Shown here: positions 7,598 to 52,483 of the stretch, in pieces
How positions within the stretch are numbered: position 1 is the stretch's first letter
Layout of the letters: the number at the start of each line of letters is the position of its first letter
From: Nevskia sp.
GTDB taxonomy: Bacteria > Pseudomonadota > Gammaproteobacteria > Nevskiales > Nevskiaceae
Length of the DNA: 64,000 nucleotides
Assembly: GCF_021732705.1 (NCBI RefSeq)
Contig: NZ_JAKFUM010000007.1
Location: 186,001 to 250,000, forward strand
Direction: 5' to 3'
Translations under genes and position numbers: made by a program
The notes under the pieces: generated by a model
Seen by the model: only the letters and a program-made list of their open reading frames with translations
The model's database searches: none
Told to the model about the DNA's origin: nothing

Positions 7598-9472
7598 TCA
7601 GGCGGCTCCGTTGGCGACTTCCGCCAGGCTGTTTTCGTCGACGCTCTGAATCTCGCGAACGAAAAGCCCGGATCGAAGATAGTTCGCGTAGATCGCTTTC
7701 ACTTCGTTCAGGTCTTTCGAGAAGATGTAGTTCGGATACATCGAAACGCGGTCGGTTGCCTCGCCATGCGGCCCGGTCTGCGGCTTCACAACGATCGCCA
7801 AGTGCCCCGACGTTTTTCGGCCAAGGCGGGCCTTCACCATTCCCGAATAGAGATAGACCGAATCACTGAACCGGCCGATGTACTTGGACTTCAGGGCGCG
7901 CTGGTAATACTCGCCGTAGAGCGCGTGAACCTGCGGGTGCGGGGGCGACTGCGTATCAATGGTCACGGTCTTTGCGGCCCTGATCGCAAGCTCACGACGA
8001 TTATCCGCGCCCTCTTCCAGTGCTTCCCGCGTGTTGTCTTGCAGGATGTCGTTCAGCCCCTTGATGGCGTCGCCCATCGCGGTCTGCGGAGTCAGCATGT
8101 AGCCGGCGACGAACTCGAATGTGTCCGGGTCCATCGCGATCCGCCGCCCCAGCATCTCTTTGTCGCTGAACGACTCGATGCCCATCGAGAACACTTCGGT
8201 CGTGCCGTGGCCGTAATCCTTCCCGACGTAGGCGTCGAAAAAGTGATCCTCGAATGCAGTTTCGTTCGGCCGGTAGCCGGTGTTCTTCGTGATCGACCGA
8301 AGTGATTTCGTATCCGGGCTGATGGCGCGCATCCGGATGTAGCGGCTGGCGGCAGCCCTCGCGACCGGGTCCGATTCCAGGTGATGCGCCAGTTCATGCC
8401 ACAGCACCCGCTTGTCGAACTGCGACCCCATGCGGATGATGCCGTCGGTCCCGAAGCTCCCGACGCCGGATGTGTTGGCGCGCTTGCCGCCTTCGGAGAC
8501 GATGGTCACCGCGCCGATCTTCCCGTCGACCAGGCGATAGAACTCCGCCATGTCGATCCGGGCCTGATCCGGCAAGTACCCCATCTTGCGCAGTCGCGCG
8601 CGCGCCGACGTGCTGATCGGGATGCCCGTCGCCCAGGCGGTAGCCTGTTCGGCGGTGACGCGGGACTTCGACAGGACACGGTCGTAAAGCTCGCCGCCGG
8701 CCTTGACGAGTTCGGCCTTCCCTTCGGCTGCGAGCGCCTGCACTTTTTCGAGAACGGCGGCGCTTTCTGCCGTCTGTGATTCGCTGATCGCGCGGGCTTC
8801 TTTGTAGATCGCCGAAGATTCATCACGCATTTTGGAGGCGGCGACGGCATCCCAGCTCTTCCAAGATTCGGTGTAGAGCTTGTCCGCGCGACGGCGCATG
8901 TCGCTGATCTTGCTGCTCAGTTCAAGCCATTTTTCTTGCTGGTCAGGCTCAAGAATCGAAAGCTGCCGGAACACATCCTTTGTCGCGATGTCGGCCTTCA
9001 TCAGTCCGACCTTGGCGTCGTCGATGAACGCTTGCGGCAGCTTCGCGGCCTTGACGTAGGACTCCGCGACGGCCGTCAGGTCATCATCTGACGGCAGCGC
9101 CCCGGCGCTCAGGTTAACAAGCTCCGGCGAGTTGAAAGCTCCGGCGGCAAGTTCGGCGTTGCTCAGTTGTTGCAGCATTTGCCGCAGCAAGTCCCTTTGA
9201 ACCTTCGCCTTCGTGAATTCCACCGGCCCGGCCGCTTCGGCTTGCGCGAGCTGGTCAGCCAGGTAGCTCGCGACGCCGGTCACCGTGACCGCGCCGTCAA
9301 TGGCCTCGCCGGGCAGCCCCAGCAACTTGCGGCGGGTCGCGGCCTGCCGAAGCCGGATGATCCGGGTGGCGAGCGCGCGCCGGGTGGTGTCGGCCTTCGA
9401 CGCCTCCGCATGGCCGATCTGCGCGCGCAGCGTGATCAAGTCGGCGGCAAGTGCCAGCCGACGGGTGACCAT
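7598..9472 (-). CDS. HExxH metallopeptidase-like polyvalent protein
   Basis: A 624-aa protein. The ATG at 9472 is preferred over the longer frame to 9559 because it begins 22 bases after the preceding stop. An alpha-helical N-terminal half (residues about 1-300, Ala/Lys/Glu-rich) precedes a zincin motif, HELAHH at 359-364. A plausible third ligand is a Glu in the segment GHGTTEVFSMG near residue 424. The C-terminus (about 540-624) is a mixed alpha/beta region. Large phage proteins that combine a helical virion-targeting part with an effector domain are known as polyvalent proteins, and peptidases are among their recurring domains. Its place between the DarA-like and DarB-like genes suggests it too is packaged and injected. 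Substrate unknown. Confidence 0.75.
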   Translation of the reverse strand: MVTRRLALAADLITLRAQIGHAEASKADTTRRALATRIIRLRQAATRRKLLGLPGEAIDGAVTVTGVASYLADQLAQAEAAGPVEFTKAKVQRDLLRQMLQQLSNAELAAGAFNSPELVNLSAGALPSDDDLTAVAESYVKAAKLPQAFIDDAKVGLMKADIATKDVFRQLSILEPDQQEKWLELSSKISDMRRRADKLYTESWKSWDAVAASKMRDESSAIYKEARAISESQTAESAAVLEKVQALAAEGKAELVKAGGELYDRVLSKSRVTAEQATAWATGIPISTSARARLRKMGYLPDQARIDMAEFYRLVDGKIGAVTIVSEGGKRANTSGVGSFGTDGIIRMGSQFDKRVLWHELAHHLESDPVARAAASRYIRMRAISPDTKSLRSITKNTGYRPNETAFEDHFFDAYVGKDYGHGTTEVFSMGIESFSDKEMLGRRIAMDPDTFEFVAGYMLTPQTAMGDAIKGLNDILQDNTREALEEGADNRRELAIRAAKTVTIDTQSPPHPQVHALYGEYYQRALKSKYIGRFSDSVYLYSGMVKARLGRKTSGHLAIVVKPQTGPHGEATDRVSMYPNYIFSKDLNEVKAIYANYLRSGLFVREIQSVDENSLAEVANGAA

Positions 9473-9889: not shown

Positions 9890-12800
9890 TCAAGCGATGG
9901 TCGCGGCGCGCGCGGTTTCAAAGTCCACGAACGCATTGACGGCGTCGTTGAACAGTTCCGCGATCTCTGCGTCTTCGGCGAACGGGGTGTATGCCGCTTC
10001 CAGCTTTTCGGTCATCGCCGGGTCGGCGAAGTCCAGCGCGCCGGCCTTGGCGTCCATCAGGAATTGCTTGGCGGCGTCGCGCGCCGGGTTCGTTGGTTCC
10101 ACGGACTTTTTCTCCGGCGGGGTGGGCTTATCGGGGGCGCGCTTGCCCTTGTTCTTGATCGCCCCGATCGTCATCGGCGTGAAGTGGAAGTCCAGTTCGA
10201 CGCCGTGGTCGGTCAGTTCCTCGATGTTGATGTAGCCCAGCTCCGCGTTCTGCCGATCGCCGTTCAGAATCGTGTAGCCGAATGCCTGCATCTGACGCGC
10301 GGGGCGCTTGATGGTCGTGATCAGCGCCCCGGCCTTGCGAGCCTTTTCATACCGCGCGGCCTCGTCTTCGTCCGACCCGACATCCTTTTCGGTGATGTAC
10401 CAGTCGCTGCCGCCCCGGAAGTAGTGCAGGCGCGCGACCGCTTCATCGCCCTGCCCATCCGTTTCCCCGGTCTTCGGCATGGCGTCGATCACGCCCAACA
10501 GTTCGGCTAGGGTCGTACGGAAGTAGCCGCCCTCTTCACCCTTCAAGCCGGATCGCACGGCCGACATCTGCGCCTTGCCCATGAATGGGGTCAGCGCGAG
10601 CATGAGGAATTCGGCGCTCGGTTCCTTTTTGGCCGGGGTCTTCGCGCCGAAGTCGGCGATCTGCTGCCGGACCTTGTTCATCGTCTCGCCGTCAGCCGTG
10701 ATGGAGTTCAAGATGGCCAGGCCACGGCCTGCCGCCATTTCCTGCATGGTGCTGAACAGGTAATCGCCGACGAACTGATCGGTCGCGGCGATGTGGAATC
10801 GCACCGTCTTGTCCTTGATGCGCACGGTCAAGGGCATGCTGCCGCCGGTATTGGCGTAGGTCGCCGAAAGCGGGTAGTCAGCGCCCTTTTCGTCGCCTTG
10901 CGGGGCAGGCTCGTCCTTGCGCGCGAGGCTCATCAGCTTGGCGAGAACGTCGCTCCGTAGCTGCACGAAGTCGCCGATCGACGGGGGGTGACCGACGGTT
11001 ACGCGCTCGATCCGGACACGGACGGCGTTCTCGAACTCCGCCGGCTCTTCATCGGCCATGCCGACGTACTGGTCGGCATACCCGCTCATCTGGTCGGCGA
11101 TCTTGTTGGCGACGGCGGTGATGGCATCGCCGTCCAGCATCGGCGCAAGCTCGTACGACTTGGTTTCGGCGTCGGTCAGCTCGCGCTCGAAGATCGCGAC
11201 GCCGTGCCGGGCCATATCGTGATGCGGCTGGCCTGCGGCCGGGCGCGGCTCCACCGTGAACATGCCCTTCGGCATGCTGCCGACCATCGGCGGGCGGTTC
11301 ACCATTGCGTAGCGGAAGCCGCCGGCTGCCGGGGCGGGCGGCTGTTCGGCGGGCAGGACGCCACCCTGTTCCTTGATCGCGGCGATGCCGTGATCGTAAG
11401 TCCGGCCGACATTCGCGGAGCGCGCCACCTGAATCCGCGCCAGTCGGCCATTCCGGTCCAGGACGTACCGCGCGCCCTTCTTCTTCGCTTTCTGATTCGA
11501 GTGCATGGAAAAGTGCATCTCCGGCATGCCGCGCTCGATCACGAAGACGAACGCGCCTTCGGGGTGATTGACCAGCGCATCGTTCACGCCGTCGACGCCC
11601 ACGATTGCGCCGGCAAAGCCGGGCTTTCCAGCGCCGAACTCGCGCGCCTCTGCCAGCATCTTGTCGACCTTCGCGGTCATCGCCTCTTGCTGCGCCTTCA
11701 GCTTGGCTTCGCGCTCCGCTTCTGCCGCAGCTCGTTCGGCGGCGTCGCGTGCCTCGTATTCCTCCGGCGATTCGGCGTGCTCTTCCACCAGGATGAACGC
11801 GCCCATCGGCGTGCGCGTCCAGACGTTCAGCTCTTCGCTTGCCAGCAGGTCCGCCGCTTCAAACGAGTTGGCTTCGAGCCACGGCGTAGCCTCGAAATAG
11901 GCCATGCCATCGCCGCGCACGGTGACGGTCACGATGACGTTCTCGCCCTTCATGACGGAGCCGACAAGGTAGCCGTCCGAACCCAGCTCGCTGAACAGGG
12001 CGTCCGGGAACAGCGATGCCGACGAGTCGTCCAGCGATGCGCCGTCCATCGTCGGCGCGTTCCGCGCGGTCGACCAGGCGACCTTGAATCCGCGCAACGC
12101 GGCCTGCTTTTCGATCTCCACGGCGGTCGTGTAGGCGGTGCCGCGCTGATCGGGAAGGCTGGCGCTGATCGCCAGCAGCGTGCGAGCCGGGGCCGTGATG
12201 TCGCCGAACTCGAAGAAACCTTCGGGGATCGGTACCGGGGTCGCTCTCGACCGCGCTTTGGGAATCAGCGCTGTCACACCATCGCTTGGGAAGTCCTCTT
12301 CTGCCAGCGAGCTGCCGAGTTTCGCCTCGACTGCGGCGCGCAGCTCAGGCGTCACGGTCATCCGTCCGCCACCATCACGCTCGAAGGTGAAGTCGCCGCC
12401 CGCGATCGGGCGGGTAACGCCAAGCGCACCCCAATCCATAGCGGACACGATGTCGGCGATGATCGCATCGCGGTCAGCTGCCGACTTGGCTGCTTCGTAG
12501 GTATTTGCCTTCAGCAGCGTGAATGACCGCTCCCCGTTCTCCCAGCCGATCAGCCAGAACTTGTTCGTGTCGCTGTAATCGACCGCGATGCCGGTCCAGT
12601 CATTCGGGAGGTTCTCGGTACCGGCTGCGTTCGACACGCTGCCGTCCTTCTGCAAGAACGGCAGGTCGCGCGAGGCGATTACTTCGGCCGGTTCCGTGAC
12701 CGCCGGCACCGTCGCGCCACCCTTGATCGCCGCAATCTGCCGCTCAAGCCCCTCGAATTCCTCGGTCTTGACCTTGATCTGTTCCTTCAGGTCGGCGATC

Positions 12801-14917
12801 ACCGCTTCCTTAGCGGCGGCTCCGGCCTGGGCGGTGGTGAACGCAGCGCTGTTCTTTTCGGCCAGCGCCATGACGCGCAGCGCGACGGTGTTCAGGTTCA
12901 GGTCGCGGCCGCGCTCCGGGGCGACGACGATCGTCACGTCCTTGCGGTTCAACAGCCACTTCCAGGACACCAGCACGTCTTCCGGCTTCAGGCGGCGCGG
13001 GGTGGCGTCCGGGTTGTTGAAAAAGATCGTCAGCGTCTGCCCGTCGCTCAGGCGGTACATCAGCGTGACGTTCAGCACGCCCTGCATGATTCGCGGCTTG
13101 CTGACGGTGAAGTCGACCGGCTTCACCGCACCGGCCTGCGCGTTCAGCGCACGTTGCAGCGCTTTCGCGGTCGACTCGATGCGGCGGCTTTCGATCGCGA
13201 TGGCGTCCAAGGTGACGGAGTCAACATCGCCTGGCGCGAACTCCGCTGCGAGGTCAGCCTCGGTCAAGCTGTCGAACAGCAGACCCTCGTCTGCGTCGCT
13301 CGCGCGCAGTGCATACAGCACTTCGGCCATGCCCTTGCCGATCGGCTGCAGCCCGTCCCACATCACTTTGTCCATGCTGGTGCTCTCTGGTGAAAGATCG
13401 CCGCTGGTCAGCGGCTTGTTGGGATTGCCGGTGCGAAGCCACGCCCGAAGCTGCTTCGGGGTGACGCGCACGATGTCCCGCAAGCCCTGCCATCCGGGGC
13501 TGTAGCTCGCGAGGTAAGTGGAACGGGCATGGGCCTCGTCAACGCAGCCAAACATGACCTTGTGCTCGTCGAAGCGGCCGTTCAGCCACTGGTTCACGAC
13601 GTAGATGTCGGGCAGCTCAGGCCACGGCCCGATGAAGCAGTCGATGCCGTCGCCGTCCGCGCCGGTCGTGCCGCTCAGGTAGCCGTAGTGGGCAGGCATC
13701 CGGGTTTCCCAGGCGACGCCGTTCGGATCGGTGCCGCGCCGGATGGAACCTGCCGGGTTCTCGATCGCGACGTGAAAGCCCTGCACCTTCGCGCGGCCGA
13801 CCTTGTAGTTCCCGGCCTCGCACTGCGCCGGGGTCGGCGGCTTTGGGGACCGATCGCCGAACGCGCTGTCGTGCGCGGCTTCGTGAATCACGGCCCAAGG
13901 GGCGCAGGTTGTGCTGTCGGTCGAATTCGCGCCGGACTTGCCGGAATCCGTCAGCTTGACTACGATCAGCGCATTCCCGCTATCGCTTCGGGCGTTGAGA
14001 TTCTCGGCCTTCAGCAGTGCGTCGGCATGAATCGTAGCGGGATACTTCCTTGCGGAATGCAACGCCAACTGGCGATTGCCAGTGCGAATCTCTTCCAGAA
14101 CGAGCACTGACCCGTCGGCCTGAGTCTTCAGGCTGACCAACAAATCCTTCCCCTCTCGCGTCTTCGGCCCCCACGCGACGTAGTCAGGCGCGGCCGTCAC
14201 TTCGGGGAACTTCATCCAGTCGTCTTCGGTGATCGGAAGCTGCCCGCGCGCGCGCTCGGCAGAGGGGTTGCTGTGCGCCTTGTGCATGTGCTGCAAGGCA
14301 TAGACATCAACCGCATGGACGTAGCCGGATAGGTCCAAGCCGAAGCCTTTGGCCGCGCCGACAACCGCATCCGAGACGCCCATAAGCGGCTTAGCTGACC
14401 CTGAAAAGTCTTTCCGACGCCATTGGCCGACGACGCTGCTGAACGTCTCCTTTGCCGCCGCTAGGGCGCTCGCGAATCGACCGAGTTCGTCGCGGGGCTG
14501 CTCGACCGCGTCGAACGTGACGACGAGCTGTCGGCCTCCGGCGAGTGCAGACCATTGCCCGTCGCTCAGGCTGTCGAAAGCGACCCCTTCCGCCCCCTCG
14601 CCCGCGTCCGTGCCGCTGTAGGCGGTCAACCGGCCTTCCGGGATGTCGCGCAGCACCGCATACAGGGCCGCGCCGCTGTTCTGTTCAGCCGATGGCGGGA
14701 TGCGCACCGCGATGTCGTAGCGCCCCGCCTCGCAGCCGACCACGAAGCCCAGGCAGTGGAAGTGCTCGAAGCCTTCCGGCTGCCCCTCGAAGTCGCACAT
14801 CAGCAGCGTGACCGGATCGCCATGCGCGAAAGCGCCGTACTGGCGCTGCCCGGCGTCGGGTGCGCTCAGGCCGATTGCTTCGGACTCGCTCAGGAATCGG
14901 CCGCGTAGCCAGGACAT
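9890..14917 (-). CDS. giant polyvalent protein with DarA-like, InPase-like and nuclease-like domains
   Basis: A 1675-aa protein starting at ATG 14917. In order: an N-terminal domain (1-140); the linker motif PRDELGRFAS (141-150), common in phage virion proteins; a region at about 195-300 resembling the barnase/EndoU-like (PBECR) domains of polyvalent proteins; the inorganic-pyrophosphatase-like domain of such proteins at about 370-490 (HYGYLSGTTGADGDGIDCF); a DarA-type domain at about 600-690 (VDFTVS...DGQTLTIFFNNPD...WKWLLN); a coiled coil at 700-745; then several unassigned domains and another coiled coil (about 1060-1120). Such proteins are packaged and delivered with the genome to counter host defence. 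The domain calls are by recognition of conserved segments, not by search. The nuclease-like call is the weakest. Confidence 0.75.
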   Translation of the reverse strand: MSWLRGRFLSESEAIGLSAPDAGQRQYGAFAHGDPVTLLMCDFEGQPEGFEHFHCLGFVVGCEAGRYDIAVRIPPSAEQNSGAALYAVLRDIPEGRLTAYSGTDAGEGAEGVAFDSLSDGQWSALAGGRQLVVTFDAVEQPRDELGRFASALAAAKETFSSVVGQWRRKDFSGSAKPLMGVSDAVVGAAKGFGLDLSGYVHAVDVYALQHMHKAHSNPSAERARGQLPITEDDWMKFPEVTAAPDYVAWGPKTREGKDLLVSLKTQADGSVLVLEEIRTGNRQLALHSARKYPATIHADALLKAENLNARSDSGNALIVVKLTDSGKSGANSTDSTTCAPWAVIHEAAHDSAFGDRSPKPPTPAQCEAGNYKVGRAKVQGFHVAIENPAGSIRRGTDPNGVAWETRMPAHYGYLSGTTGADGDGIDCFIGPWPELPDIYVVNQWLNGRFDEHKVMFGCVDEAHARSTYLASYSPGWQGLRDIVRVTPKQLRAWLRTGNPNKPLTSGDLSPESTSMDKVMWDGLQPIGKGMAEVLYALRASDADEGLLFDSLTEADLAAEFAPGDVDSVTLDAIAIESRRIESTAKALQRALNAQAGAVKPVDFTVSKPRIMQGVLNVTLMYRLSDGQTLTIFFNNPDATPRRLKPEDVLVSWKWLLNRKDVTIVVAPERGRDLNLNTVALRVMALAEKNSAAFTTAQAGAAAKEAVIADLKEQIKVKTEEFEGLERQIAAIKGGATVPAVTEPAEVIASRDLPFLQKDGSVSNAAGTENLPNDWTGIAVDYSDTNKFWLIGWENGERSFTLLKANTYEAAKSAADRDAIIADIVSAMDWGALGVTRPIAGGDFTFERDGGGRMTVTPELRAAVEAKLGSSLAEEDFPSDGVTALIPKARSRATPVPIPEGFFEFGDITAPARTLLAISASLPDQRGTAYTTAVEIEKQAALRGFKVAWSTARNAPTMDGASLDDSSASLFPDALFSELGSDGYLVGSVMKGENVIVTVTVRGDGMAYFEATPWLEANSFEAADLLASEELNVWTRTPMGAFILVEEHAESPEEYEARDAAERAAAEAEREAKLKAQQEAMTAKVDKMLAEAREFGAGKPGFAGAIVGVDGVNDALVNHPEGAFVFVIERGMPEMHFSMHSNQKAKKKGARYVLDRNGRLARIQVARSANVGRTYDHGIAAIKEQGGVLPAEQPPAPAAGGFRYAMVNRPPMVGSMPKGMFTVEPRPAAGQPHHDMARHGVAIFERELTDAETKSYELAPMLDGDAITAVANKIADQMSGYADQYVGMADEEPAEFENAVRVRIERVTVGHPPSIGDFVQLRSDVLAKLMSLARKDEPAPQGDEKGADYPLSATYANTGGSMPLTVRIKDKTVRFHIAATDQFVGDYLFSTMQEMAAGRGLAILNSITADGETMNKVRQQIADFGAKTPAKKEPSAEFLMLALTPFMGKAQMSAVRSGLKGEEGGYFRTTLAELLGVIDAMPKTGETDGQGDEAVARLHYFRGGSDWYITEKDVGSDEDEAARYEKARKAGALITTIKRPARQMQAFGYTILNGDRQNAELGYINIEELTDHGVELDFHFTPMTIGAIKNKGKRAPDKPTPPEKKSVEPTNPARDAAKQFLMDAKAGALDFADPAMTEKLEAAYTPFAEDAEIAELFNDAVNAFVDFETARAATIA

Positions 14918-15001: not shown

Positions 15002-15029
15002 TTGACTTATGAAATTTGGGTGCTATCTT
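15002..15029 (+). promoter_or_regulatory. sigma70-type promoter for the 15066-17648 operon
   Basis: TTGACT (15002-15007), a 16-base spacer and TATCTT (15024-15029), the latter preceded by TGC as in extended -10 promoters. This is the best consensus promoter in the window. The surrounding bases are conspicuously AT-richer than the flanking genes. The 11-mer TGTCTGTACAT begins on the last base of the -10 box (15029-15039) and recurs at 34417. Confidence 0.7.
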
Positions 15030-15065
15030 GTCTGTACATTAACTCGCAGGACAGGACGCAAACCG

Positions 15066-15380
15066 ATGAACACTTTTCTTTTCAGCGACACCACCGAAGC
15101 CTATGACTCCACCCAATGCGATGACCGCATCAAGGACGGCGACGTGCTGGTCATTGCCGACGAGGGCGTTGTGGGCATCTGCCACACATGGCCGATCGCC
15201 GTCACCGCTGAGTCGGGTTCGCTCCATCAGATCGCCTTCATCACGGGCATCGAAATGGCGCGCGTGCTGGGCCTGTCGTACGAACAGATGCTGACCAGCC
15301 TGCGCGCCGCCGTCGCCACGGCCGAGCATCAGGGCTGGGACATCGCTCCGCAGATCGCCGCTGTCCTTGCTGCCGCCTGA
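15066..15380 (+). CDS. hypothetical protein, first gene of the small-gene operon
   Basis: A 104-aa acidic protein (MNTFLFSDTT...). The ATG at 15066 is chosen over 15009 because 15009 lies inside the promoter spacer; a purine-rich AGGACAGGAC sequence precedes 15066. The protein looks alpha/beta, without membrane segments or cysteine clusters. As the first gene after a strong promoter it should be well expressed. No family recognised. Confidence 0.65.
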   Translation: MNTFLFSDTTEAYDSTQCDDRIKDGDVLVIADEGVVGICHTWPIAVTAESGSLHQIAFITGIEMARVLGLSYEQMLTSLRAAVATAEHQGWDIAPQIAAVLAAA

Positions 15381-15394
15381 ACACGGAACCAACC

Positions 15395-15607
15395 ATGACC
15401 CCCCTCGAATCCACCCCCGCCATCACCGGCCGCACGGTCCGCAGCCTCATGCGGAAGCACCGCAAGACGATCCGTGGCATCGCCACGGAGTTCGGCCTGA
15501 CGATGAAGCGGGTGCGGGAAGTCCGTACGCGCGGGGTCGCCGCCGGCTTGATCGCCGGGGAGTGGACTTTCATCTTGACCGGCGTTTGGCCGGACCACGT
15601 TGCTTAA
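15395..15607 (+). CDS. small basic helix-turn-helix-like protein
   Basis: A 70-aa basic protein. The segment RKTIRGIATEFGLTMKRVRE (about residues 23-42) reads as a helix-turn-helix (IA..FGLT..RVR pattern). The C-terminus resembles the short beta-hairpin ending (WTFILTG) of small plasmid and phage regulators. It follows the first operon gene by 14 bases. It could regulate this operon or the neighbouring promoter. DNA binding is inferred from the motif only. Confidence 0.65.
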   Translation: MTPLESTPAITGRTVRSLMRKHRKTIRGIATEFGLTMKRVREVRTRGVAAGLIAGEWTFILTGVWPDHVA

Positions 15608-15613
15608 CCACCA

Positions 15614-15631
15614 GCCCGGCGAGCGCCGGGC
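15614..15631 (+). other. intercistronic stem-loop
   Basis: GCCCGGC, a 4-base loop (GAGC) and GCCGGGC form a perfect 7-bp stem 18 bases before the next start codon. There is no T-run, so it is not a standard terminator. Similar stems occur before other genes of the plus-strand operons. Confidence 0.55.
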
Positions 15632-15649
15632 GACTTACTGGAGCCTCAC

Positions 15650-15934
15650 ATGACCCTCAGTTTTGCTTGCACCAAGGATGAATCCGCCCTGATCGCGAAG
15701 GCCGTCGACCGCGCGATGAAGCTGGCCGATGAAATGGGCTTGGACTATCCGCGTATGGACTGCCACATGGACCTGACCGCGTGCCACGCCAATGGCAACC
15801 CGCTGGATTTCGCCCGGCTGGTAGACGCCGACGACTTCAATTTCAGCCATGACGTGCTTGGCATCCGCCGGCACATCGACCGGAACACCGGGAAGCTCTT
15901 GGACTGCTTTTCCCCCCGCTTCTCGCAACGCTGA
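15650..15934 (+). CDS. DUF6874-like protein
   Basis: A 94-aa protein with the pattern MDLTACHANGNPLDF...ADDFNFSHDVLGI.RHIDR.TG.L, which I recognise as the small DUF6874-type family common on plasmids and phages of proteobacteria. Conserved His, Cys and Asp residues suggest a metal- or nucleotide-related fold, but the function is unknown. It is preceded by TGGAG and by a stem-loop. Confidence 0.7.
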   Translation: MTLSFACTKDESALIAKAVDRAMKLADEMGLDYPRMDCHMDLTACHANGNPLDFARLVDADDFNFSHDVLGIRRHIDRNTGKLLDCFSPRFSQR

Positions 15935-15945
15935 CCCGGCTTGCC

Positions 15946-15970
15946 GATGCGCCTGCACTGCGGGCGCATC
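15946..15970 (+). other. intercistronic stem-loop
   Basis: GATGCGCC and GGCGCATC form a perfect 8-bp stem around a 9-base loop in the 72-base gap between the DUF6874-like gene and the next gene. No T-tract follows. It may stabilise or process the operon mRNA. Confidence 0.5.
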
Positions 15971-16006
15971 CACAAGCCACACCCTTGAGCCTGATCGGAG
16001 CCGAAC

Positions 16007-16258
16007 ATGCAGACCCCCGACACCCAACCCGGTGCCTACTTCGTGACCGCCCGGTCGGACGACGGCGCAACCTTCTGGCCGATGCTGGGGCCGTTCGTGA
16101 ATGACCATGCCGCAGCACTGGCGATGGTCGACAAGGCCCGCGACAAGGCCACCGAGATCGACCCGCGCGCATGGTGGATGGCATGGGGAACGACCCGACT
16201 CGACGCTGATCACCCGGCCGCTGCCAAGCCGGGCCGACTGAACCCGCTGTTTCCCTGA
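16007..16258 (+). CDS. hypothetical accessory protein
   Basis: An 83-aa protein with a short N-terminal beta-rich part (GAYFVTARSDDGATFWPMLGPF) followed by a helix and a tryptophan-rich segment (AWWMAWGTTRL). This is typical of short conserved plasmid/phage proteins of the type 'GxYyV...gP', which modify or decorate nothing known. No catalytic motif is seen. It is co-directional with its neighbours. Confidence 0.65.
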   Translation: MQTPDTQPGAYFVTARSDDGATFWPMLGPFVNDHAAALAMVDKARDKATEIDPRAWWMAWGTTRLDADHPAAAKPGRLNPLFP

Positions 16259-16270
16259 ACGAGAGCGCCC

Positions 16271-16474
16271 ATGTCCGCCTACGCCGAAATCTTCCGCAAG
16301 CTGCAACCGAAGTGCGACCCGCGCCATGTCGAAGCCTATGTCCGGCTCGAATACGCGACGCTGGGGAGCCTGCCGATCGAAACCCTGCGGCGCGAGGCGA
16401 AGATCGCCGCCGATTGCATCAATGCCGTGCCGCTGGCCGAGTCCGAATCGCTGGCCGTCTCGTTCGGGCTGTGA
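16271..16474 (+). CDS. small helical hypothetical protein
   Basis: A 67-aa protein (MSAYAEIFRKL...), predicted to be mostly helical and amphipathic. It starts 12 bases after the previous gene with a GAGAG purine stretch upstream. The HVEAYVRLEYATL...LSIE-like pattern is common in small plasmid-borne proteins. No function assigned. Confidence 0.6.
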   Translation: MSAYAEIFRKLQPKCDPRHVEAYVRLEYATLGSLPIETLRREAKIAADCINAVPLAESESLAVSFGL

Positions 16475-16476
16475 TC

Positions 16477-16695
16477 ATGACGAAGACCTATACCCTGTCC
16501 GGCGTCGGCGCTCCGATCGCCGACGTGACCGAAGCCGAGGCGACCCGGTTCGTCGCCAAGGCGACCGGCAAGCCCGTCGATTCGACCGAGGTCCGCGCGT
16601 TCATGCGCGTCGCTGCGAACGACGGCATCGCCCTGACCGTCGCCTATCCCCACATCGGCGAACAGCGGATGATGCTGCGCGCCAACGGAAACTGA
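16477..16695 (+). CDS. hypothetical protein
   Basis: A 72-aa protein (MTKTYTLSG...). The ATG at 16477 follows the preceding stop at once; a GTG at 16471 is also possible. The sequence looks like a compact alpha/beta fold with a beta-hairpin end. No motif recognised. Confidence 0.6.
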   Translation: MTKTYTLSGVGAPIADVTEAEATRFVAKATGKPVDSTEVRAFMRVAANDGIALTVAYPHIGEQRMMLRANGN

Positions 16696-16696
16696 C

Positions 16697-16888
16697 ATGC
16701 CAACCAAAGCAAACGCCGCCCTTGAGCGCAAAGTGAAAGCCCTCTGCGCCAAGTTCTACGACGACCTTCAGGCCGTGTTCGACGATCCGGCGATGGACGA
16801 CGCCACCTATTCGGCGGCGATCTGCACTGCCGCCGTCAGCGCGCAGGGCTACGCCGATGATGCGCGCAATGCCGAGTTGGATTCATGA
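16697..16888 (+). CDS. small hypothetical protein
   Basis: A 63-aa helical protein (MPTKANAALER...), starting one base after the previous stop and overlapping the next start by 4 bases (ATGA at 16885). It contains several Ala, Asp and Tyr residues and no cysteine pair. Unknown. Confidence 0.55.
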   Translation: MPTKANAALERKVKALCAKFYDDLQAVFDDPAMDDATYSAAICTAAVSAQGYADDARNAELDS

Positions 16889-30909: not shown

Positions 30910-31032
30910 TCACGACTTCAGCGGCGCGTCGATACCGACGCGGACTTGCCCGTTCTTCAGGTCGGTGATGGTCACGACCACGTCAGGGCCGATATGGATG
31001 GTTTCGCCTACGCGGCGAGTGAGGATCAGCAT
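30910..31032 (-). CDS. csrA: truncated CsrA/RsmA homologue (40 aa)
   Basis: The first 37 residues follow the CsrA consensus closely: [30 protein letters not shown]. CsrA is a dimeric RNA-binding post-transcriptional regulator. The frame stops after DAPLKS, so the usual beta-5 strand with R44 (RNA contact) and the C-terminal helix are missing; a typical CsrA has about 61 residues. It begins at ATG 31032 and is the last small gene before the tail operon. It may be a shortened variant that binds RNA differently, acts by dimer exchange with the host CsrA, or is a decaying gene. Confidence 0.7.
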
Positions 31033-31482: not shown

Positions 31483-31803
31483 TCAATCTCCGAAGTAGAA
31501 GACAGCAGCGAGGGTAACGAAAGCCAGCACAGCGAAGGCCAGCGCGCACTTCAAGAGCAGCCTATCAAACTCCCGGAGAATATCCGCTCGGGCGGTATCG
31601 TGCGCCCTCTGCATTCTGTCCTTAGCACGCTGCAAGGCCGCTTCATTAGACTCGATGTACGCTGCCTCCCAGGCTGAATTACTCGCCGAATTAGCTGTGT
31701 CCGCATACGCTCTTGCGGAAGCCGTCGACGACGCTGCCGACCCATAACCGGTCAGACGTGGCGTGCTGTCCGTCGGCGAGGATGAAACGGTCTGGTCATT
31801 CAT
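31483..31803 (-). CDS. small C-tail-anchored membrane protein with helical stem
   Basis: A 106-aa protein: Ser/Ala-rich N-terminus, a charged helix (KDRMQRAHDTARADILREFDR) and a C-terminal transmembrane segment (about 86-103). Topology resembles the neighbouring 82-aa protein, suggesting a pair acting at the membrane. It overlaps the previous gene by 8 bases. Function unknown. Confidence 0.6.
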   Translation of the reverse strand: MNDQTVSSSPTDSTPRLTGYGSAASSTASARAYADTANSASNSAWEAAYIESNEAALQRAKDRMQRAHDTARADILREFDRLLLKCALAFAVLAFVTLAAVFYFGD

Positions 31804-33504: not shown

Positions 33505-33979
33505 GCGGCACTTCCGGCGCTGCGGTGAAATGCTCGACGGCCTTCCGCCAGATGGCCTTGATCGTCGTCCAGTCCACTTCGACCTTGCCGACGGTCCAAC
33601 CCTCGCCGGCGCAGTCCGGGCAATCTTCGTCGACATCTTTCGCGGCCGTCGCTCGACGCTCAGGGTGATCCCCTGTGCCCTCACACGCATCACAGACGAC
33701 GCGCGTCGAAACAAAGAACTCGCCGATCATCAGCCCCTTCGCGCCGTTCTCCGCAGTCAGCCGAAGGGGCAGCACGGCATGATCCGCCGACAGTTTCGGC
33801 GTCGGCGGCGCGGCTTCTTCCAGCAACTCGATCAGCCGCAGGCCGTTACCGCCATAGCCAGGTTCAAGCATCCCCGCAATGCGCTGCGCTGCTTCTTCGG
33901 CTTGCTGCCCTGCGCGGCAGATGCGGTCAGCTGCCGCTTCGATTCGATGCACAGCGCGCCAGATGGATTCGTCGTTCAC
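33497..33979 (-). CDS. hypothetical protein with DnaJ-type CxxCxGxG zinc motif
   Basis: A 160-aa protein with a GTG start coupled to the previous stop. It contains CDACEGTG and CPDCAGEG, spaced 20 residues apart, similar to half of the DnaJ zinc domain (CxxCxGxG). A helical N-terminus (about 1-60) precedes it and a short helix follows. The motif is common in small phage proteins; chaperone function is not implied. Confidence 0.6.
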   Translation of the reverse strand: MNDESIWRAVHRIEAAADRICRAGQQAEEAAQRIAGMLEPGYGGNGLRLIELLEEAAPPTPKLSADHAVLPLRLTAENGAKGLMIGEFFVSTRVVCDACEGTGDHPERRATAAKDVDEDCPDCAGEGWTVGKVEVDWTTIKAIWRKAVEHFTAAPEVPHG

Positions 33980-34389
33980 GGTTTGGCCTTCAGTTCTGGA
34001 TGCACCGTCGGTTCCCTGATCTCGGCGTTGATCTCGGCGTCAATCGCGGCGAGGCGCTTGGCGGCGATCAGTTCGTACTCGGCGCGCATGGCGCGCAGAC
34101 CAGCTAACCGGTCCCCGAACAGCAGGCGAGGATTCTGAGACGCTGATCCTGAATCGCAGTCGCCGTGATGGACGGAACTCGTCCATGCGGGCCGAACATC
34201 TCCGGGGAGAGTCACGAATGACGACTCATGAACATTTACTTTCCAGCCATACGCTTTCTGTATGCCGGGACCGTCATTCGCTCGCACGGTTGGCTTCGGA
34301 ACTTGCGTCGGATCACTCCACCGAAGCGCGAACGCGATGCTCCGCGCCTTCAAGGCCACTTCAAGCTCGGCCTTCTCCGCCTTGTTCAT
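33976..34389 (-). CDS. hypothetical protein, first gene after the nested palindrome
   Basis: A 137-aa protein from ATG 34389 (MNKAEKAELEVALKARSIAF...); an in-frame ATG at 34431 lies inside the palindrome arm and is less likely. Helical N- and C-termini flank a beta-rich centre (YGWKVNVHESSFVTL). Its promoter probably overlaps the 34435 operator. It is therefore the first gene of a leftward operon of small proteins and may be controlled by the phage repressor. Confidence 0.55.
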   Translation of the reverse strand: MNKAEKAELEVALKARSIAFALRWSDPTQVPKPTVRANDGPGIQKAYGWKVNVHESSFVTLPGDVRPAWTSSVHHGDCDSGSASQNPRLLFGDRLAGLRAMRAEYELIAAKRLAAIDAEINAEIREPTVHPELKAKP

Positions 34390-34417
34390 CGCCACGTTTC
34401 GACGCTCCCGTGATAGT

Positions 34418-34467
34418 GTCTGTACATCCAATTCACTAGCGAACGCTAGTCCTTTTTCCGTACAGAC
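34418..34467. promoter_or_regulatory. 50-bp nested palindrome with repressor-type operator at its centre
   Basis: Outer arms GTCTGTAC (34418-34425) and GTACAGAC (34460-34467) are separated by 9 bases on each side from the perfect 16-bp dyad ACTAGCG AA CGCTAGT (34435-34450). All four arms share the same centre (34442.5). The core matches the sites at 50233 and 52466. It lies in the divergent gap in front of the ribbon-helix-helix gene. Confidence 0.75.
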
Positions 34468-34478: not shown

Positions 34479-34652
34479 ATGACCCGACCGCCCGTGCCGC
34501 CCGAATCACGCCGCGACCATCGGTTTCAGATTCGCGTGAACCAGGCTGAACACGACGCGATCAAGGCCGCTGCCGCTCCCGATGACGAAAGCACATGGGC
34601 GCGGCGCGAGCTGCTGAAGATCGCAGCGAGCAAGGCCAAGCCGAAGCGCTAG
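34479..34652 (+). CDS. 57-aa ribbon-helix-helix regulator
   Basis: Only plus-strand gene in a 33-kb leftward region. Translated directly: after a proline-rich start, HRFQIRVNQAEHDAIKAAA...DESTWARRELLKIA has the Arc/MetJ-type ribbon-helix-helix pattern (alternating beta strand, helix, turn, second helix). It lies 12 bases after the nested palindrome, which is likely its own operator. Its stop shares the tetranucleotide CTAG with the stop of the terminase gene on the other strand. Small RHH proteins commonly repress their own promoter. Confidence 0.7.
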   Translation: MTRPPVPPESRRDHRFQIRVNQAEHDAIKAAAAPDDESTWARRELLKIAASKAKPKR

Positions 34653-36178
34653 GGCACGTCGGCGAAGGCGTCTTCCGCTTCCTTGACGGCGCGCTTGATT
34701 CGAGTGCCGGTCTCGCCGGAAATCTCTTCACCGCTCGGGGTGTAGTGCGCCCATTCGAGGAACAGAAAGCTGATCGCGTCCCACAAGTCGGGCGACGGGA
34801 TGCCTTCTCGTTCCATGTCCTCTTTCGACATGATGTATTGCTTGCCGCGGCCGTCGAACTTGCGCGGGATGCGCGACGCTTCGAGGATCAGGTCGGTCTT
34901 GCACTCGTCCGTGAGGATGCTCAGACGCCCCTCGCGCACGGCGCGTGCTGCGAAGGCATTGGCCTGCGCGCGCTGATTCAGGAACCGGTCCTTGTAGTTC
35001 TTCCGGAAGTTCGGCTTGCCCCACATGACGGGGTGGATAGAGATGCCCTGCTCTTCCATGTTCTTGAACACTGGCCAGCCCTGCCCGACAGCGTCGATCA
35101 GGACCGCGCTGTTCGTCAGCTCGCGCGCTTCAGCAAGCGCAATGCCCCCCATCGCGATTGGGTCGGTGCCACCGCGACGGATGATCTTGACGATCTCCAT
35201 ACGCCGCGCGTCCGGGCCGAATTCTTCGCTGCCTGTGACCCGCGCGATGATCAGAACGGACTTGTTGCGCCAGCCGCCGCCGGCCACGTCGAAGCCGATC
35301 AGCCAGCCAGGATTGTCGGACGCCGCGATGATGCGGCCGAGCGTGTAGCTGCGCTCGATCTCAGTCCGCCCCAGCAAGTAGTTTTCGGAGTCGACCGGGA
35401 ACAGCCCGCGAACGCGCACCTTGTATTCGACCGAATCGCGTCCGCCGTACTCGTCTTCCTTCTCGCGCAAGTTCTCGCGCGACACCAGCGGCGAGTTCTC
35501 GCCGTCGAAGTGCAGCGCCTTCCAAGCGCCGCCCTGCCTCGTGCTGGTCTTGTGGTGCGTCTCCCAAAAGAACCCGCTGTTGCGGCTCCCCTGCGACGCG
35601 CAGGCGATGCGATTGCGCTTGTCCGTCAGCGCACCAGTGAAGCGCGACATCACGCCGTCCGGGATGCCGGCGGTTTCGTCGGTCAGGATCAGCAGCCAAT
35701 CCGCGTGCGATCCTGATACGTTGTCCGGCGATCCGCGCGGCGCTGTCTTGGCGTGAACGAACCAGGTTTCCTTGAAATCGCGGATGTAGACGCGCTGCGA
35801 ATTCATGACGATGTAAGGCCGCAGCCAGGCATGCGAGCCGCGCTGCAATTCATTCAGTGCGACCGCCATCTCGCGCCAAACACCCTTGCGGACCTGATCG
35901 ACCTTCGGGGCGCTGATCACCGTCTCGCTGCCCTGATTGCTGTTGCTGAAGTAGCAGGTCAGGTGCCACAAGGCGATGATCCCGAATCCTCGGGTTTTGC
36001 CGGTACCGTGGCCACTGACTGCAGACACGCGACACCCGGCTTCGCTCACCGCGTCGTAGAGCTGGAATTGCTGGTGCGTCGGCTCTTGATTGCAGACCTC
36101 CACAGCGAAGCGTCCGGCGTCAGGCGCGTAGCGTTCGCGGAAGGCGGCGTGCAGCTCGCGGTTGGGAAGCAGGATCAT
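34649..36178 (-). CDS. terL: terminase large subunit
   Basis: A 509-aa protein. The ATPase has Walker A SGHGTGKT (55-62) and Walker B ILTDE (164-168). A nuclease domain of the RNase-H type follows, with FDVAGGG near residue 300, VLIDAVGQG near 360 and SPDLWDAISF near 470. It packages DNA into the prohead. The gene starts in a 4-base overlap with the previous stop. The small subunit candidate lies at 38336. No portal gene follows; small genes do. Confidence 0.9.
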   Translation of the reverse strand: MILLPNRELHAAFRERYAPDAGRFAVEVCNQEPTHQQFQLYDAVSEAGCRVSAVSGHGTGKTRGFGIIALWHLTCYFSNSNQGSETVISAPKVDQVRKGVWREMAVALNELQRGSHAWLRPYIVMNSQRVYIRDFKETWFVHAKTAPRGSPDNVSGSHADWLLILTDETAGIPDGVMSRFTGALTDKRNRIACASQGSRNSGFFWETHHKTSTRQGGAWKALHFDGENSPLVSRENLREKEDEYGGRDSVEYKVRVRGLFPVDSENYLLGRTEIERSYTLGRIIAASDNPGWLIGFDVAGGGWRNKSVLIIARVTGSEEFGPDARRMEIVKIIRRGGTDPIAMGGIALAEARELTNSAVLIDAVGQGWPVFKNMEEQGISIHPVMWGKPNFRKNYKDRFLNQRAQANAFAARAVREGRLSILTDECKTDLILEASRIPRKFDGRGKQYIMSKEDMEREGIPSPDLWDAISFLFLEWAHYTPSGEEISGETGTRIKRAVKEAEDAFADVP

Positions 36179-45100: not shown

Positions 45101-47187
45101 GCAGCCTTCAGCTTCGGGCGCTGCAATTCATGCGAAAAGTTCGCGCGCACAAGGGCTGCTGCGACAGGCGGGCAGACCGAATTACCGATCATGCGAACCT
45201 GAGCCGTCTTGGTCAGCGGGGTGCCATCAGGCTTCCGATCAATGATGTAGTCGGCTGGGAACCCCTGCGCCGTCGCAAGCTCGCGCGGGGTCAGCATCCG
45301 CATGCCGATGTCGACAATCTCGTAGGGTTCGCCGTGCACCATCACCAGGCCGAGGCGGTCCTTGGTCGGGATCGTGTGCATCGGTTCGTCGAGTGAAACC
45401 CCGTCGCGCTCGTTGCCGTAATACTTGACGAGGAAAGCCCGGACCTCGCCGGCATGCGTGCCGCTGGCCGTGATCGTCGGGGCTGGCTGGTCGACCGGCT
45501 GGCCGTCCTGACAGGTGCCGCGCAGCTTGATCAGGTGCGACGTGACGACTGACTGATGGCTGCCGCTGGCGCAGAGCGTGCTGATCGGCTCGCCGACCTC
45601 GCGGCCCACGTTCGGCACGCCGCCGCGATGGTTGTTGTGCTGCGCGAGGAAGGCAGCGACCAATGCTGTCTTTCCGCTGCCGCCGGCAGTCGTTGTGCCG
45701 ACAGGCTCCTCCACGCTATTGCAGGCGCTGGCCCCGAACTGACGGTCAAGAACCGCGGCGATGACCGCGTGCTTCGCGCCGCCACCGACGACCGTGCCGA
45801 GCGGCTGCTCGATGTCCAGGGCGCGCGGAGCCTGCCCCTCGCGCTCGCCATAGCCGGTCTGCACCAGCGTCGCAGCGACAACCGCCTGCCCGTTGCTGGC
45901 CGTCACCGTCTTGACCGGCTGATTGATGTCGGCGGTGCCATCGCCCCACCGCTGCACGCCGCCGGGCTTGCCCTCGCCGTGCGCAGCCTGAATCAGCGTC
46001 GCCGAGATCAGCGCCTGCTCGCCGCGATGCGCCCCGGTGACCGTCGGCATCGGATCGGTCATCGCAGTGCCCCGGCGGTCACCGTGGTGCGTCAGCGGAG
46101 CAACATGCGCCGATACAAGCCCGATCGGCGCAGAGCCACCAGGACGCACGATGTAACTGTTCGCCGTGACAGTCGGCAACGGCTCATCAATGCCAGCGCC
46201 AGTCGCGCCGTTCCGGAACTTCGTGATGTGCGGGACGACAACGGCATGCGCGCCGCCCTTCGGGTTCGCCGTGATCGTGGTCAGCGGCTCGTCGGCGTCA
46301 TTCACCCGAAGGCCAGAGCCGTAATTCGCGATCGGCACGATGAACGGGTTGGCGGAGTTGACGACGTAGCGCATGACGCCGCGCGCGATCCGGCGAAGCG
46401 TTGCCTCCGCAAGCGGCTTTTTACGCTCGAAGATGGACGGACATGAGATTGACCAGTCGATGCACTCAGCAGCCGTGCGCCACGGCCGCACCTTGCCAGA
46501 CTGCGCCGGCAGCTTCTTCGGGTCGCCATGCGTCGGCGCAGGCCAGACAATCGGCAAGCCATCGCGCCGGGCGATCAAGAACAGCCGCTTCCGGATCGTC
46601 GGTGCGCCGTAATCGCAGGCGCGCAGTTCGCGGTGCTCAATTGCATAGCCGAGCTTGCGAAACCGATCCAAGAACCTCTCGAAGTATTCGCCTTTGCGAT
46701 CAGGATCGGGGTGCCATTCCTTAACCGTGTACGGTTTGCCAGCAACGTCGATCTTCACGACCGTCCGCTGAATGAGCGGCCCCCAGGACCGGAATTCCTC
46801 GACGTTTTCCATGATGATTACGCGAGGCTTGACCTTGTCCGCCCACTTCGTAACTACCCAGGCAAGCCCTCGAATCTTCTTGCTGACCGGCTTCCCGCCC
46901 TTCGCCTTGCTGAAGTGCTTGCAGTCCGGCGACGCCCACAGCAGGCCGACCTGTCGATGGCCCATTGCGCCTTCAGGGTCGATTGCCCACACGTCCTCGC
47001 GGATGTGTCGGGTGAGCGGATGATTCGCTTCGTGCATCGCGAGCGCTTCGCCGTCGTGATTCACGGCGACATCGGGGCAGCGGCCGAGTGCTATCCGAAT
47101 ACCGGTCGACGCGCCTCCGCCGCCCGCGAAGGAGTCAACAACCAATTCATGGAAATCGAACTCAAAACTGCGGCCATCAGCGCTCAA
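45097..47187 (-). CDS. C5-cytosine DNA methyltransferase with nine tandem repeats in the TRD region
   Basis: A 696-aa protein with a TTG start at 47187 and GAGG upstream; no in-frame ATG is near. DSFAGGGGAS (18-27) is motif I, SPDCKHFS (86-93, catalytic Cys 89) is motif IV with S-P-D in place of P-P, ENV (127-129) is motif VI and KRLFLIARR near 200 is motif VIII. Nine repeats of about 35-45 aa, each with an EPxxTxTA-like core, fill about residues 295-600 where a target-recognition domain is expected. The C-terminus (MLTPRELATAQGFPADY) is motif X-like. It should methylate phage DNA; target site unknown. Confidence 0.9.
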   Translation of the reverse strand: MSADGRSFEFDFHELVVDSFAGGGGASTGIRIALGRCPDVAVNHDGEALAMHEANHPLTRHIREDVWAIDPEGAMGHRQVGLLWASPDCKHFSKAKGGKPVSKKIRGLAWVVTKWADKVKPRVIIMENVEEFRSWGPLIQRTVVKIDVAGKPYTVKEWHPDPDRKGEYFERFLDRFRKLGYAIEHRELRACDYGAPTIRKRLFLIARRDGLPIVWPAPTHGDPKKLPAQSGKVRPWRTAAECIDWSISCPSIFERKKPLAEATLRRIARGVMRYVVNSANPFIVPIANYGSGLRVNDADEPLTTITANPKGGAHAVVVPHITKFRNGATGAGIDEPLPTVTANSYIVRPGGSAPIGLVSAHVAPLTHHGDRRGTAMTDPMPTVTGAHRGEQALISATLIQAAHGEGKPGGVQRWGDGTADINQPVKTVTASNGQAVVAATLVQTGYGEREGQAPRALDIEQPLGTVVGGGAKHAVIAAVLDRQFGASACNSVEEPVGTTTAGGSGKTALVAAFLAQHNNHRGGVPNVGREVGEPISTLCASGSHQSVVTSHLIKLRGTCQDGQPVDQPAPTITASGTHAGEVRAFLVKYYGNERDGVSLDEPMHTIPTKDRLGLVMVHGEPYEIVDIGMRMLTPRELATAQGFPADYIIDRKPDGTPLTKTAQVRMIGNSVCPPVAAALVRANFSHELQRPKLKAA

Positions 47188-49984: not shown

Positions 49985-50221
49985 TCAGGCAGCCGCCTGC
50001 GAGCCGGTGCCGCGCACGACCGCCCAATCGACATCCGGGCGCGTGACTTCGACGGGCACTTTCCCCTCCGTCTCGCGCTCGATGTTGATGGCGAGGCTCT
50101 CGCCGGGCGTCGCGTTCTCGCTCGACACCAGCATCAGATAGCCGACCGTCGATCCGACGGCTTTGGCAAACGCCTCGCGGTCGAGGCGGGACAAGGGCAA
50201 CCAGAATTCGCGGAATTTCAT
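49985..50221 (-). CDS. cro: Cro-like repressor of the early switch
   Basis: A 78-aa protein. LSRLDREAFAKAVGSTVGYLMLVSSENATPGESLAINIERETEGKV is a helix-turn-helix with the YdaS/Cro-type pattern, ending in RPDVDWAVVR, a motif that often follows the HTH in this group. It is divergent from the repressor gene and its -10 overlaps operator 50233. Its promoter lies so close to the ATG that the mRNA may be almost leaderless. It should promote lytic development by repressing the repressor. Confidence 0.75.
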   Translation of the reverse strand: MKFREFWLPLSRLDREAFAKAVGSTVGYLMLVSSENATPGESLAINIERETEGKVPVEVTRPDVDWAVVRGTGSQAAA

Positions 50222-50230
50222 AGTGCCGTG

Positions 50231-50259
50231 AGACTAGCGTCCGCTAGTCTTCTCGTCAA
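50231..50259 (-). promoter_or_regulatory. cro-operon promoter with overlapping 16-bp operator
   Basis: Minus strand: TTGACG (50254-50259), a 17-base spacer and TAGTCT (50231-50236). The -10 lies in the perfect dyad AGACTAGCG TC CGCTAGTCT (50231-50250), so repressor binding would block polymerase. The same arrangement of -10 in the operator is repeated at 52478. Confidence 0.75.
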
Positions 50260-50289
50260 TAGCGATCACTCGTTTAGTTTTCACTAGCG
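50253..50289 (+). promoter_or_regulatory. candidate repressor promoter with operator half-sites
   Basis: TCGTCA (50253-50258), a 16-base spacer and TAGTTT (50275-50280) give a moderate promoter in front of the repressor gene. AATAGCG (50258-50264) and ACTAGCG (50283-50289) are operator half-sites without a matching partner. They could give graded self-regulation. Confidence 0.5.
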
Positions 50290-50307
50290 GTGCGCGGTAA
50301 TAAGTGG

Positions 50308-50952
50308 ATGGCAAAACCGCGCAAACCAGACGATCCGATCACGGCCAATCGGCGGCGGAAGCTCCGCGACCTTGTGTCGAGCTACGACTCGGTAGCCGAC
50401 TTTTGCAGGCGATACGGGCTAGACGAGGGTTACATCGGCCAGCTTCTGAATGGCTTTTCGAGCTTTGGGGAAAAGTCCGCACGCAATCTGCGCGCGAAAA
50501 TCGGGTCGATTCCCGACGGATACTTTGAGTCGCAACAGGACGCCAATGTTGAACCGGGGCCAGCCCTTGCCCCTGTGCGGATGGTGCCTATCGTGGCAAT
50601 GGTTCAGGCAGGGCCAAATGGCTTTTTCGAGATCATCGGCCATGTTGCCGGGGAAGAAGTACCGTTCTACACGCGGAGCACGAACGCCTACGCGCTCAGA
50701 GTGCGGGGCGATTCGATGCGCCCCAGGATTCGCAGCGGGCAGATCATCGTGGCGGACCCTGACACGGTTTACGCGCCCGAAGACGATGTGGTCGTGATGC
50801 TGAAGTCGGGGGAGTACATGGTTAAGGAACTGCTCGTCGAGCGGAATGACGAAATTGTCGTCACCAGCGTCAACAACGGCGAGCGGCGAACAATCGCCAA
50901 GGCCGACATCGAGTACATCCATTGCGTAGTCGACATCATGAGGCGGGGATGA
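50308..50952 (+). CDS. LexA/CI-like S24 repressor
   Basis: A 214-aa protein from ATG 50308; a GTG at 50290 would add six residues. N-terminal HTH (VADFCRRYGLDEGYIGQLLNG, about 29-49), then the S24 peptidase domain: cleavage bond A101-G102 (MVQAGP), S136 in RGDSMRPR and K173 in GEYMVKEL. The spacing of 34 residues from the cleavage Gly to the Ser and 37 to the Lys equals that in E. coli LexA. RecA-stimulated self-cleavage would induce the phage after DNA damage. The gene and cro diverge over the shared operator region. Confidence 0.9.
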   Translation: MAKPRKPDDPITANRRRKLRDLVSSYDSVADFCRRYGLDEGYIGQLLNGFSSFGEKSARNLRAKIGSIPDGYFESQQDANVEPGPALAPVRMVPIVAMVQAGPNGFFEIIGHVAGEEVPFYTRSTNAYALRVRGDSMRPRIRSGQIIVADPDTVYAPEDDVVVMLKSGEYMVKELLVERNDEIVVTSVNNGERRTIAKADIEYIHCVVDIMRRG

Positions 50953-52440: not shown

Positions 52441-52456
52441 ACTAGCGTTTGCTATT
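52441..52456. promoter_or_regulatory. repressor operator, degenerate copy
   Basis: ACTAGCG-TT-TGCTATT matches the operator consensus ACTAGCG-N2-CGCTAGT in 12 of 14 specified bases. It lies upstream of the -10 and overlaps the start of the -35 (52455) of the rightward promoter. Together with the site at 52466 it forms a pair with centres 25 bp apart. Confidence 0.6.
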
Positions 52457-52483
52457 GCATATTCAAATAGCGTTCGCTAGTCT
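52455..52483 (+). promoter_or_regulatory. rightward early promoter with operator over the -10
   Basis: TTGCAT (52455-52460), a 17-base spacer and TAGTCT (52478-52483). The operator AATAGCG-TT-CGCTAGT (52466-52481) covers the spacer and -10. It is the same design as the cro promoter and explains co-regulation of both arms. It should drive the 52524-64000 operon. Confidence 0.75.
52466..52481. promoter_or_regulatory. repressor operator over the rightward -10 box
   Basis: AATAGCG-TT-CGCTAGT differs from the perfect dyad at 34435 in one arm base. It overlaps the -10 box at 52478-52483 and lies 25 bp from the degenerate copy upstream. Confidence 0.7.

Follow-up and report, generated by a model that had tools for sequence, protein, structure and literature searches.

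Why should a prophage carry what appears to be one of its repressor operators beside a terminase gene, ~16 kb away from its immunity region, and why should this site lie at the exact centre of a second, larger dyad? The locus is a 50-bp palindrome, GTCTGTACATCCAATTCACTAGCGAACGCTAGTCCTTTTTCCGTACAGAC, in the window (the whole stretch of 64,000 nucleotides of Nevskia sp. DNA that was analysed). It has the form GTCTGTAC-N9-ACTAGCG-AA-CGCTAGT-N9-GTACAGAC. The outer arms are perfect reverse complements of 8 bp each, the inner dyad is perfect over 7+7, and a 9-base gap separates them on each side. An earlier note had described such a nested palindrome with a common centre at 34442.5 and a right arm ending 12 bases before the frame at 34479; arms, gaps, centre and distance all proved to be exact. 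Each arm is centred at a distance of 21 bp from the middle of the core, which corresponds to two helical turns. Symmetric perfect arms of at least 8 bp at offsets of 8-30 occur at 0.055% of all centres, and such an outer arm is found on one of the nine perfect dyads with 7-bp arms in the window, the chance figures for core and arms being after-the-fact ones.

The palindrome and the prophage that carries it

The prophage is bounded by a tRNA-Val gene, at least 40 bp of which is repeated at -19515 and 65842 in window numbering, and from these repeats its size is taken as about 85.4 kb (C3:166485-251842, where C3 is the contig, 476 kb long). The tRNA-Val repeats, the integrase and the 476-kb contig show that this is not a plasmid prophage. 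Its tyrosine integrase domain (65137-65655) lies at the right end and is the only one within the att-bounded element. The virion genes are P1-like and include a PacB-type terminase that is 40% identical to that of Xanthomonas phage Rb1, 33% to that of P1 and 47% to that of pBVIE05; three phage-plasmids match many genes between -13.8 kb and 30.8 kb. An asymmetric operator consensus of the P1 C1 type gave 0 matches here with up to three mismatches. The phage also carries a short CsrA-like frame (30910-31032, minus strand, 40 aa, Pfam CsrA E 1.6e-15). At the palindrome there are four GGA in the minus-strand leader and none on the plus strand, and any link between the CsrA-like frame and this leader is speculation.

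Table 1. Features at the palindrome, the 15-kb locus and the immunity region (window positions)
Feature	Position	Strand	Basis or remark
Promoter TTGACT-N16-TATCTT (9/12), then directly GTCTGTACAT	15002..15039	+	
Series of small genes that may be a second target	15066..16888	+	mostly without family matches
Divergent gene	33976..34389	-	phrog_28248 E 2.6e-17
Weak promoter candidate TCGCCA-N17-GATAGT (8/12)	34389..34417	+	promoter-like match scan
Composite 50-bp palindrome	34418..34467	none	sequence, arm-symmetry scan
Left arm GTCTGTAC	34418..34425	+	within TGTCTGTACAT (34417-34427), common to 15029-15039
Inner dyad, probable distal S24 repressor operator	34435..34450	none	motif common to 50233, 52441 and 52466
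Right arm, inverted copy of GTCTGTAC	34460..34467	-	exact match, symmetry
57-aa gene, possibly RHH, start codon uncertain	34479..34652	+	tail-to-tail overlap with terminase stop
P1 PacB-like large terminase gene	34649..36178	-	profile and protein comparison
cro-like gene, divergent to repressor	49985..50221	-	phrog_35 E 3.6e-7; Pfam YdaS below cut-off
Operators 50233, 50258 and, weakly, 50283, spaced 25 bp	50233..50298	none	between repressor and cro-like gene
S24 repressor gene	50308..50952	+	Pfam PF00717, PHROG
Operator pair 52441/52466, spaced 25 bp	52441..52481	none	upstream of plus-strand block with RecT and exonuclease genes

The inner dyad and the S24 repressor

The earlier note had likened the core to sites at 50233 and 52466 and had assigned these to a LexA-like repressor. 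Both parts are supported. The same motif is present at both sites, the core being identical to the 50233 site except for two central bases and different from the 52466 site at one base, and the gene at 50290/50308 carries an S24 domain (Pfam PF00717, E 8.2e-14). The phrog_4 repressor profile spans residues 19-218 of its product, and a Pfam search gave no HTH match. The protein has QAG, GDSM and Lys residues, located by eye, which we take to be those needed for self-cleavage. The layout of the immunity region is lambda-like, and a minus-strand TTGACG-N17-TAGTCT overlaps the 50233 operator. At the 52441/52466 pair the best promoter match reaches just 7/12.

How specific is the core motif? With up to three mismatches it has 7 matches in the window where 2.27 are expected, and 7 or more were obtained in 0 of 100 shuffles; at least two of the seven, at 14068 and 62859, are probably chance matches. 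The exact core is found at two places in the 4.53-Mb genome, both in the window (reversed control 0). Allowing one mismatch, AMTAGCGNNCGCTAKT is found at five places in the genome, four in this prophage and one on contig 13, and its reversed control at nine, so that the evidence for the core lies in clustering and not in a genome-wide excess. When 144 kb covering the prophage and its surroundings was scanned, the core motif was found only at 34435, 50233, 52441 and 52466. A matrix built on six sites placed 34435 at the top (26.3), followed by 52466, 50233, 52441 and 50258, with 50283 scoring only 7.8, a ranking that is circular because the same sites trained the matrix. The next-best operator-like sequence is ACTGGCGATTGCCAGT at 14068-14083, inside the gene at 9890-14917, with a matrix score of 16.7 (0.4 expected at 14 or above); it is possibly a chance match.

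Because the same motif occurs in the immunity region (50233) and at 52441/52466, the core at 34435 is very likely to be a site at which the S24 (LexA/CI-type) repressor of this prophage acts, and since the window lies within the ~85-kb prophage it would be a distal operator. The consensus SOS box is CTGT-N8-ACAG; an exact copy is absent from the arms, and the sole match in the window is at 46157. A tandem partner 25 bp away is absent at the 34-kb operator, with nothing at 34410 or 34460. A degenerate second operator at 34412-34427, picked out by eye, has a half-site of 5/7 and a spacing of 23 rather than 25, and it is not claimed here.

The outer arms, the 34479 gene and the 15-kb locus

The core accounts for the centre of the palindrome. 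What could bind the arms? The earlier note looked to the gene at 34479, which it called a ribbon-helix-helix (RHH) gene, and suggested that the palindrome controls a divergent gene pair and that two proteins could compete for it or bind it co-operatively. Matches of the 34479 protein to phrog_4113 (E 4.6e-4, residues 8-33) and to Pfam NikA-like (E 0.019, under the family cut-off) speak for RHH identity. Against this, a single-sequence monomer model (pLDDT 73, pTM 0.33) has two helices and no strand, with a helix in place of the expected RHH strand, searches of NCBIfam and PDB gave unrelated weak matches only, and the coding score favours a start at 34536 over 34479, with the result that most of the N-terminal RHH-like stretch (residues 8-33) would be lost. 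The assignment is therefore weak, and RHH is a possible identity of the protein on its profile matches. At a limit of 1e-4, which the 34479 protein itself missed, phrog_4113 was matched in 4 of 274 genomes, whereas 14 controls gave no match. Two or more of these four proteins (L172 and L174 among them) look RHH-like by eye. As for divergent control, the minus-strand gene at 33976-34389 is indeed divergent, but the promoter-like matches are weak, 8/12 on the plus strand versus 7/12 on the minus strand, and a stricter promoter scan found none at the 34-kb locus.

The arm sequence itself is found elsewhere in the prophage. In the window GTCTGTAC has three exact copies, the two arms and one at 15030, where 0.38 are expected (three or more in 1 of 100 shuffles), and all three are in upstream regions. 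With one mismatch it occurs 20 times versus 20.4 expected, which is chance level. The bare 11-mer TGTCTGTACAT has an E of 1.8 in 144 kb. The longer pattern TGTCTGTACATNNA, the last letters (NNA) of which were fitted to the two sites, occurs in the genome just at 15029 and 34417, both on the plus strand and both immediately 3' of a -10-like hexamer (reversed control 0). One gene in the 15066-16888 run has DUF6874 (E 5.8e-32), and the run adjoins a large minus-strand gene.

Is the left arm then an element shared by the two loci? Alignment of the 15-kb and 34-kb regions scores 11, and the 95th and 99th percentiles of the shuffles are 10 and 12. In 144 kb, the 15-kb and 34-kb genes are the only ones preceded by the leader motif ACAG(G)ACGCAARCC. 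The leader alignment scores 9 (p 0.02 by shuffling), other upstream regions giving one score of 10 and four of 9, and pieces of 12 and 13 bases of the 34-kb copy are also found elsewhere. A comparison of 35 upstream regions revealed one more, that at 31803, with an 11-mer in common with the 34-kb region, and this 11-mer is core-like. The controls on the similarity between the 15-kb and 34-kb loci are borderline, and they make both a function of the left arm and the regulatory relay described below less probable. The left arm may be a shared functional element, an assignment that we regard as tentative and somewhat below even.

The palindrome, the common core, the common 11-mer and the gene layout are direct observations, and from them we infer binding events, promoter use, a cleavage step and a role for the arms. 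A two-layer model, the preferred reading, would have the core as a distal S24 operator and the arms as a second element for the 34479 product; its chance falls a little short of one half. In a lysogen, a repressor dimer on the 34435 core would silence the plus-strand 34479 transcript, and such silencing of the 34479 gene is somewhat more probable than its absence. Should the weak promoter candidate with its end at 34417 be genuine, this operator would cover about +11 to +26 and the block would act just downstream of the start. Upon DNA damage the repressor would be cleaved and the 34479 gene would be turned on. The left arm would be a piece of the promoter-proximal phage motif TGTCTGTACAT that is also present at the 15-kb operon, and the right arm would be its inverted partner. 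RHH proteins often regulate their own genes, and for this reason the 34479 product, if RHH, is the natural candidate for the arm ligand. It would be the likeliest ligand and would regulate its own gene; that it binds the arms at all is doubtful. Against the two-layer model, the 34435 site is single while the other sites are tandem.

It may instead be that the core alone matters. The left arm would then be start-site sequence and the right arm leader sequence, the symmetry would be accidental, no second protein would be involved, and the locus would be an ordinary distal operator; we give this somewhat less than an even chance of being correct. The right flanks of 34435 and 52466 match in register at 10 of 13 positions, among them the GTAC of the right arm (the best of 120 comparisons, p 0.0004). 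When the 34435 and 52466 regions are aligned with gaps, operator included, the score is 22 versus 14 at the 99.9th percentile, a cut-off derived by shuffling a different pair of regions. The borderline controls at the 15-kb locus and the chance-level count of one-mismatch arm copies point in the same direction. However, the low frequency of symmetric arms and the three exact copies of GTCTGTAC, all in upstream regions, count against an accidental symmetry.

A bolder version of the two-layer model is a two-tier relay, which we consider improbable. The S24 repressor would silence an RHH gene through an operator nested in the RHH protein's own dyad, and the RHH protein would repress the GTCTGTACAT promoter of the separate plus-strand operon at 15 kb. 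All sites at 34 kb would be on one helical face. With the repressor off, the RHH protein would be made and the 15-kb operon would be turned off, so that lysogens would express this operon and induced cells would not. A second promoter class of their own may be present in relatives, as may be the case for GTGAGCGCATACA, found at four places in pBVIE05.

The palindrome could also act in RNA, either by forming a long hairpin in the 34479 mRNA leader or as an attenuator (the inner stem, then CCTTTTTCC). The plus strand folds at -23.1 kcal/mol (z -6.5) with an outer stem of 10 pairs, one of them G-U, and there is one terminator-like match at 34435-34450, where 0.6 are expected. However, any such palindrome folds, the minus strand has a z of -3.0, the core recurs at sites that need no such hairpin, and the promoter candidate would start within the left arm; an RNA role is very unlikely. 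In P1, loxP is located near pac. A recombination or resolution site beside the packaging gene is the least probable alternative and almost negligible: the palindrome is ~200 bp beyond the PacB homologue and in pBVIE05 a gene for a resolvase follows the terminase at a distance of ~4 kb, but a serine-recombinase domain is found on contig 6 only, the sole tyrosine-integrase domain of the prophage belongs to its right end, and the core matches the immunity operators.

Known systems and relatives

Like a lambda-type CI/Cro switch, the prophage has an S24 repressor, a divergent cro-like gene and tandem operators between them; unlike it, there is an extra single operator ~16 kb off, by the terminase and inside a larger dyad. 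Here P1-type virion genes are combined with a lambda-type switch, in a prophage that has a tRNA repeat at its ends. Arc and Mnt of P22 immI are small RHH repressors whose control region is separate from, and distant to, the main switch. The comparison is limited by the weak RHH identity of the 34479 protein, and we know of no prophage-repressor operator inside P22 immI.

In P1, the C1 repressor has 22 operators dispersed over the genome (PMC8546580). The likeness is that of a prophage repressor with dispersed operators and a P1-type packaging gene; in contrast, the P1 operator described there is 17 bp and asymmetric, whereas here an S24 repressor would use a symmetric operator at three loci (PMC8546580). 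TP901-1 is reported to have a composite OM-OR in which putative sites for a second protein lie beside the CI operator, and there is evidence for the importance of both (PMC7250872). Second-protein sites, putative here, likewise adjoin a CI-type operator, but MOR is described as an HTH protein that binds CI and the site here is outside the immunity region (PMC7250872). Mycobacteriophage stoperators are numerous repressor sites that lie beyond the immunity region and are able to arrest elongation (PMC9283540). Both systems have repressor sites away from the immunity region, those of the mycobacteriophages being numerous and that of the prophage a single symmetric distal site (PMC9283540).

Dispersed and composite operators are already known. 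A prophage-repressor operator enclosed by a second dyad before a small, possibly RHH, gene would be new if both layers are real; nothing of this kind was among the papers listed by searches of one open library, which does not prove absence. The two-layer model, if correct, would couple a damage-sensitive master repressor to a second small regulator via one nested site. It would also account for the way in which genes located beyond the immunity region, one accessory operon among the virion genes included, follow the lysis-lysogeny decision.

Do relatives keep the arrangement? The core (194 genomes), the repressor (61 genomes, E 1e-30), the 57-aa protein (369 genomes, E 0.001) and the terminase (369 genomes, E 1e-60) were each found in the window's own genome only. 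Pattern scans of IMG/VR for arms and core returned 5 and 15 stretches, which were treated as chance since tblastn (E 1e-3) with the 34479 gene, the minus gene, the repressor and the terminase matched none of these 20 loci. Searches with single proteins also failed to reveal a close relative: the repressor has distant phage matches only (152 records, all <60% identity), and the minus gene at 33976-34389 has ~30% matches in 600 plasmid records. With the terminase profile, genomes yielded 39 loci and IMG/VR another 333 (80 kept), with a best identity of 48%. Across 150 loci, the best matches apart from the prophage itself had E 0.69 for the RHH gene and E 0.016 for the minus gene, and none of the genomes and IMG/VR loci searched proved to be a relative that retains the core. 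A distal-operator scan of the window and 10 relatives missed even the window's own operators and is thus without power.

A dyad scan of three plasmids returned mostly GC-rich chance dyads and, in DR133, a GATATC dyad at five places, four of them close to a ParA gene. pBVIE05, for which a search by name in one open library found no publication, also has a plus-strand operon of small genes beside a related large minus-strand gene. In pBVIE05 (L166/L167) the exact 13-mer GTGAGCGCATACA occurs at 7902+, 73651+, 74576+ and 60461-, in each case, by eye, with a sequence resembling TTGACC or TTGCG ahead of it and a start codon after it; these sites are a possible second promoter class on that pattern. 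Several terminase matches (L033, L089, L090, L093, L094, L103, L108, L147 and L031) span ~2.2 kb and not 1.5 kb. The long match in P. atacamensis (L031) is annotated as a Hint-domain homing endonuclease, and this annotation suggests that inteins are present in PacB-type terminases.
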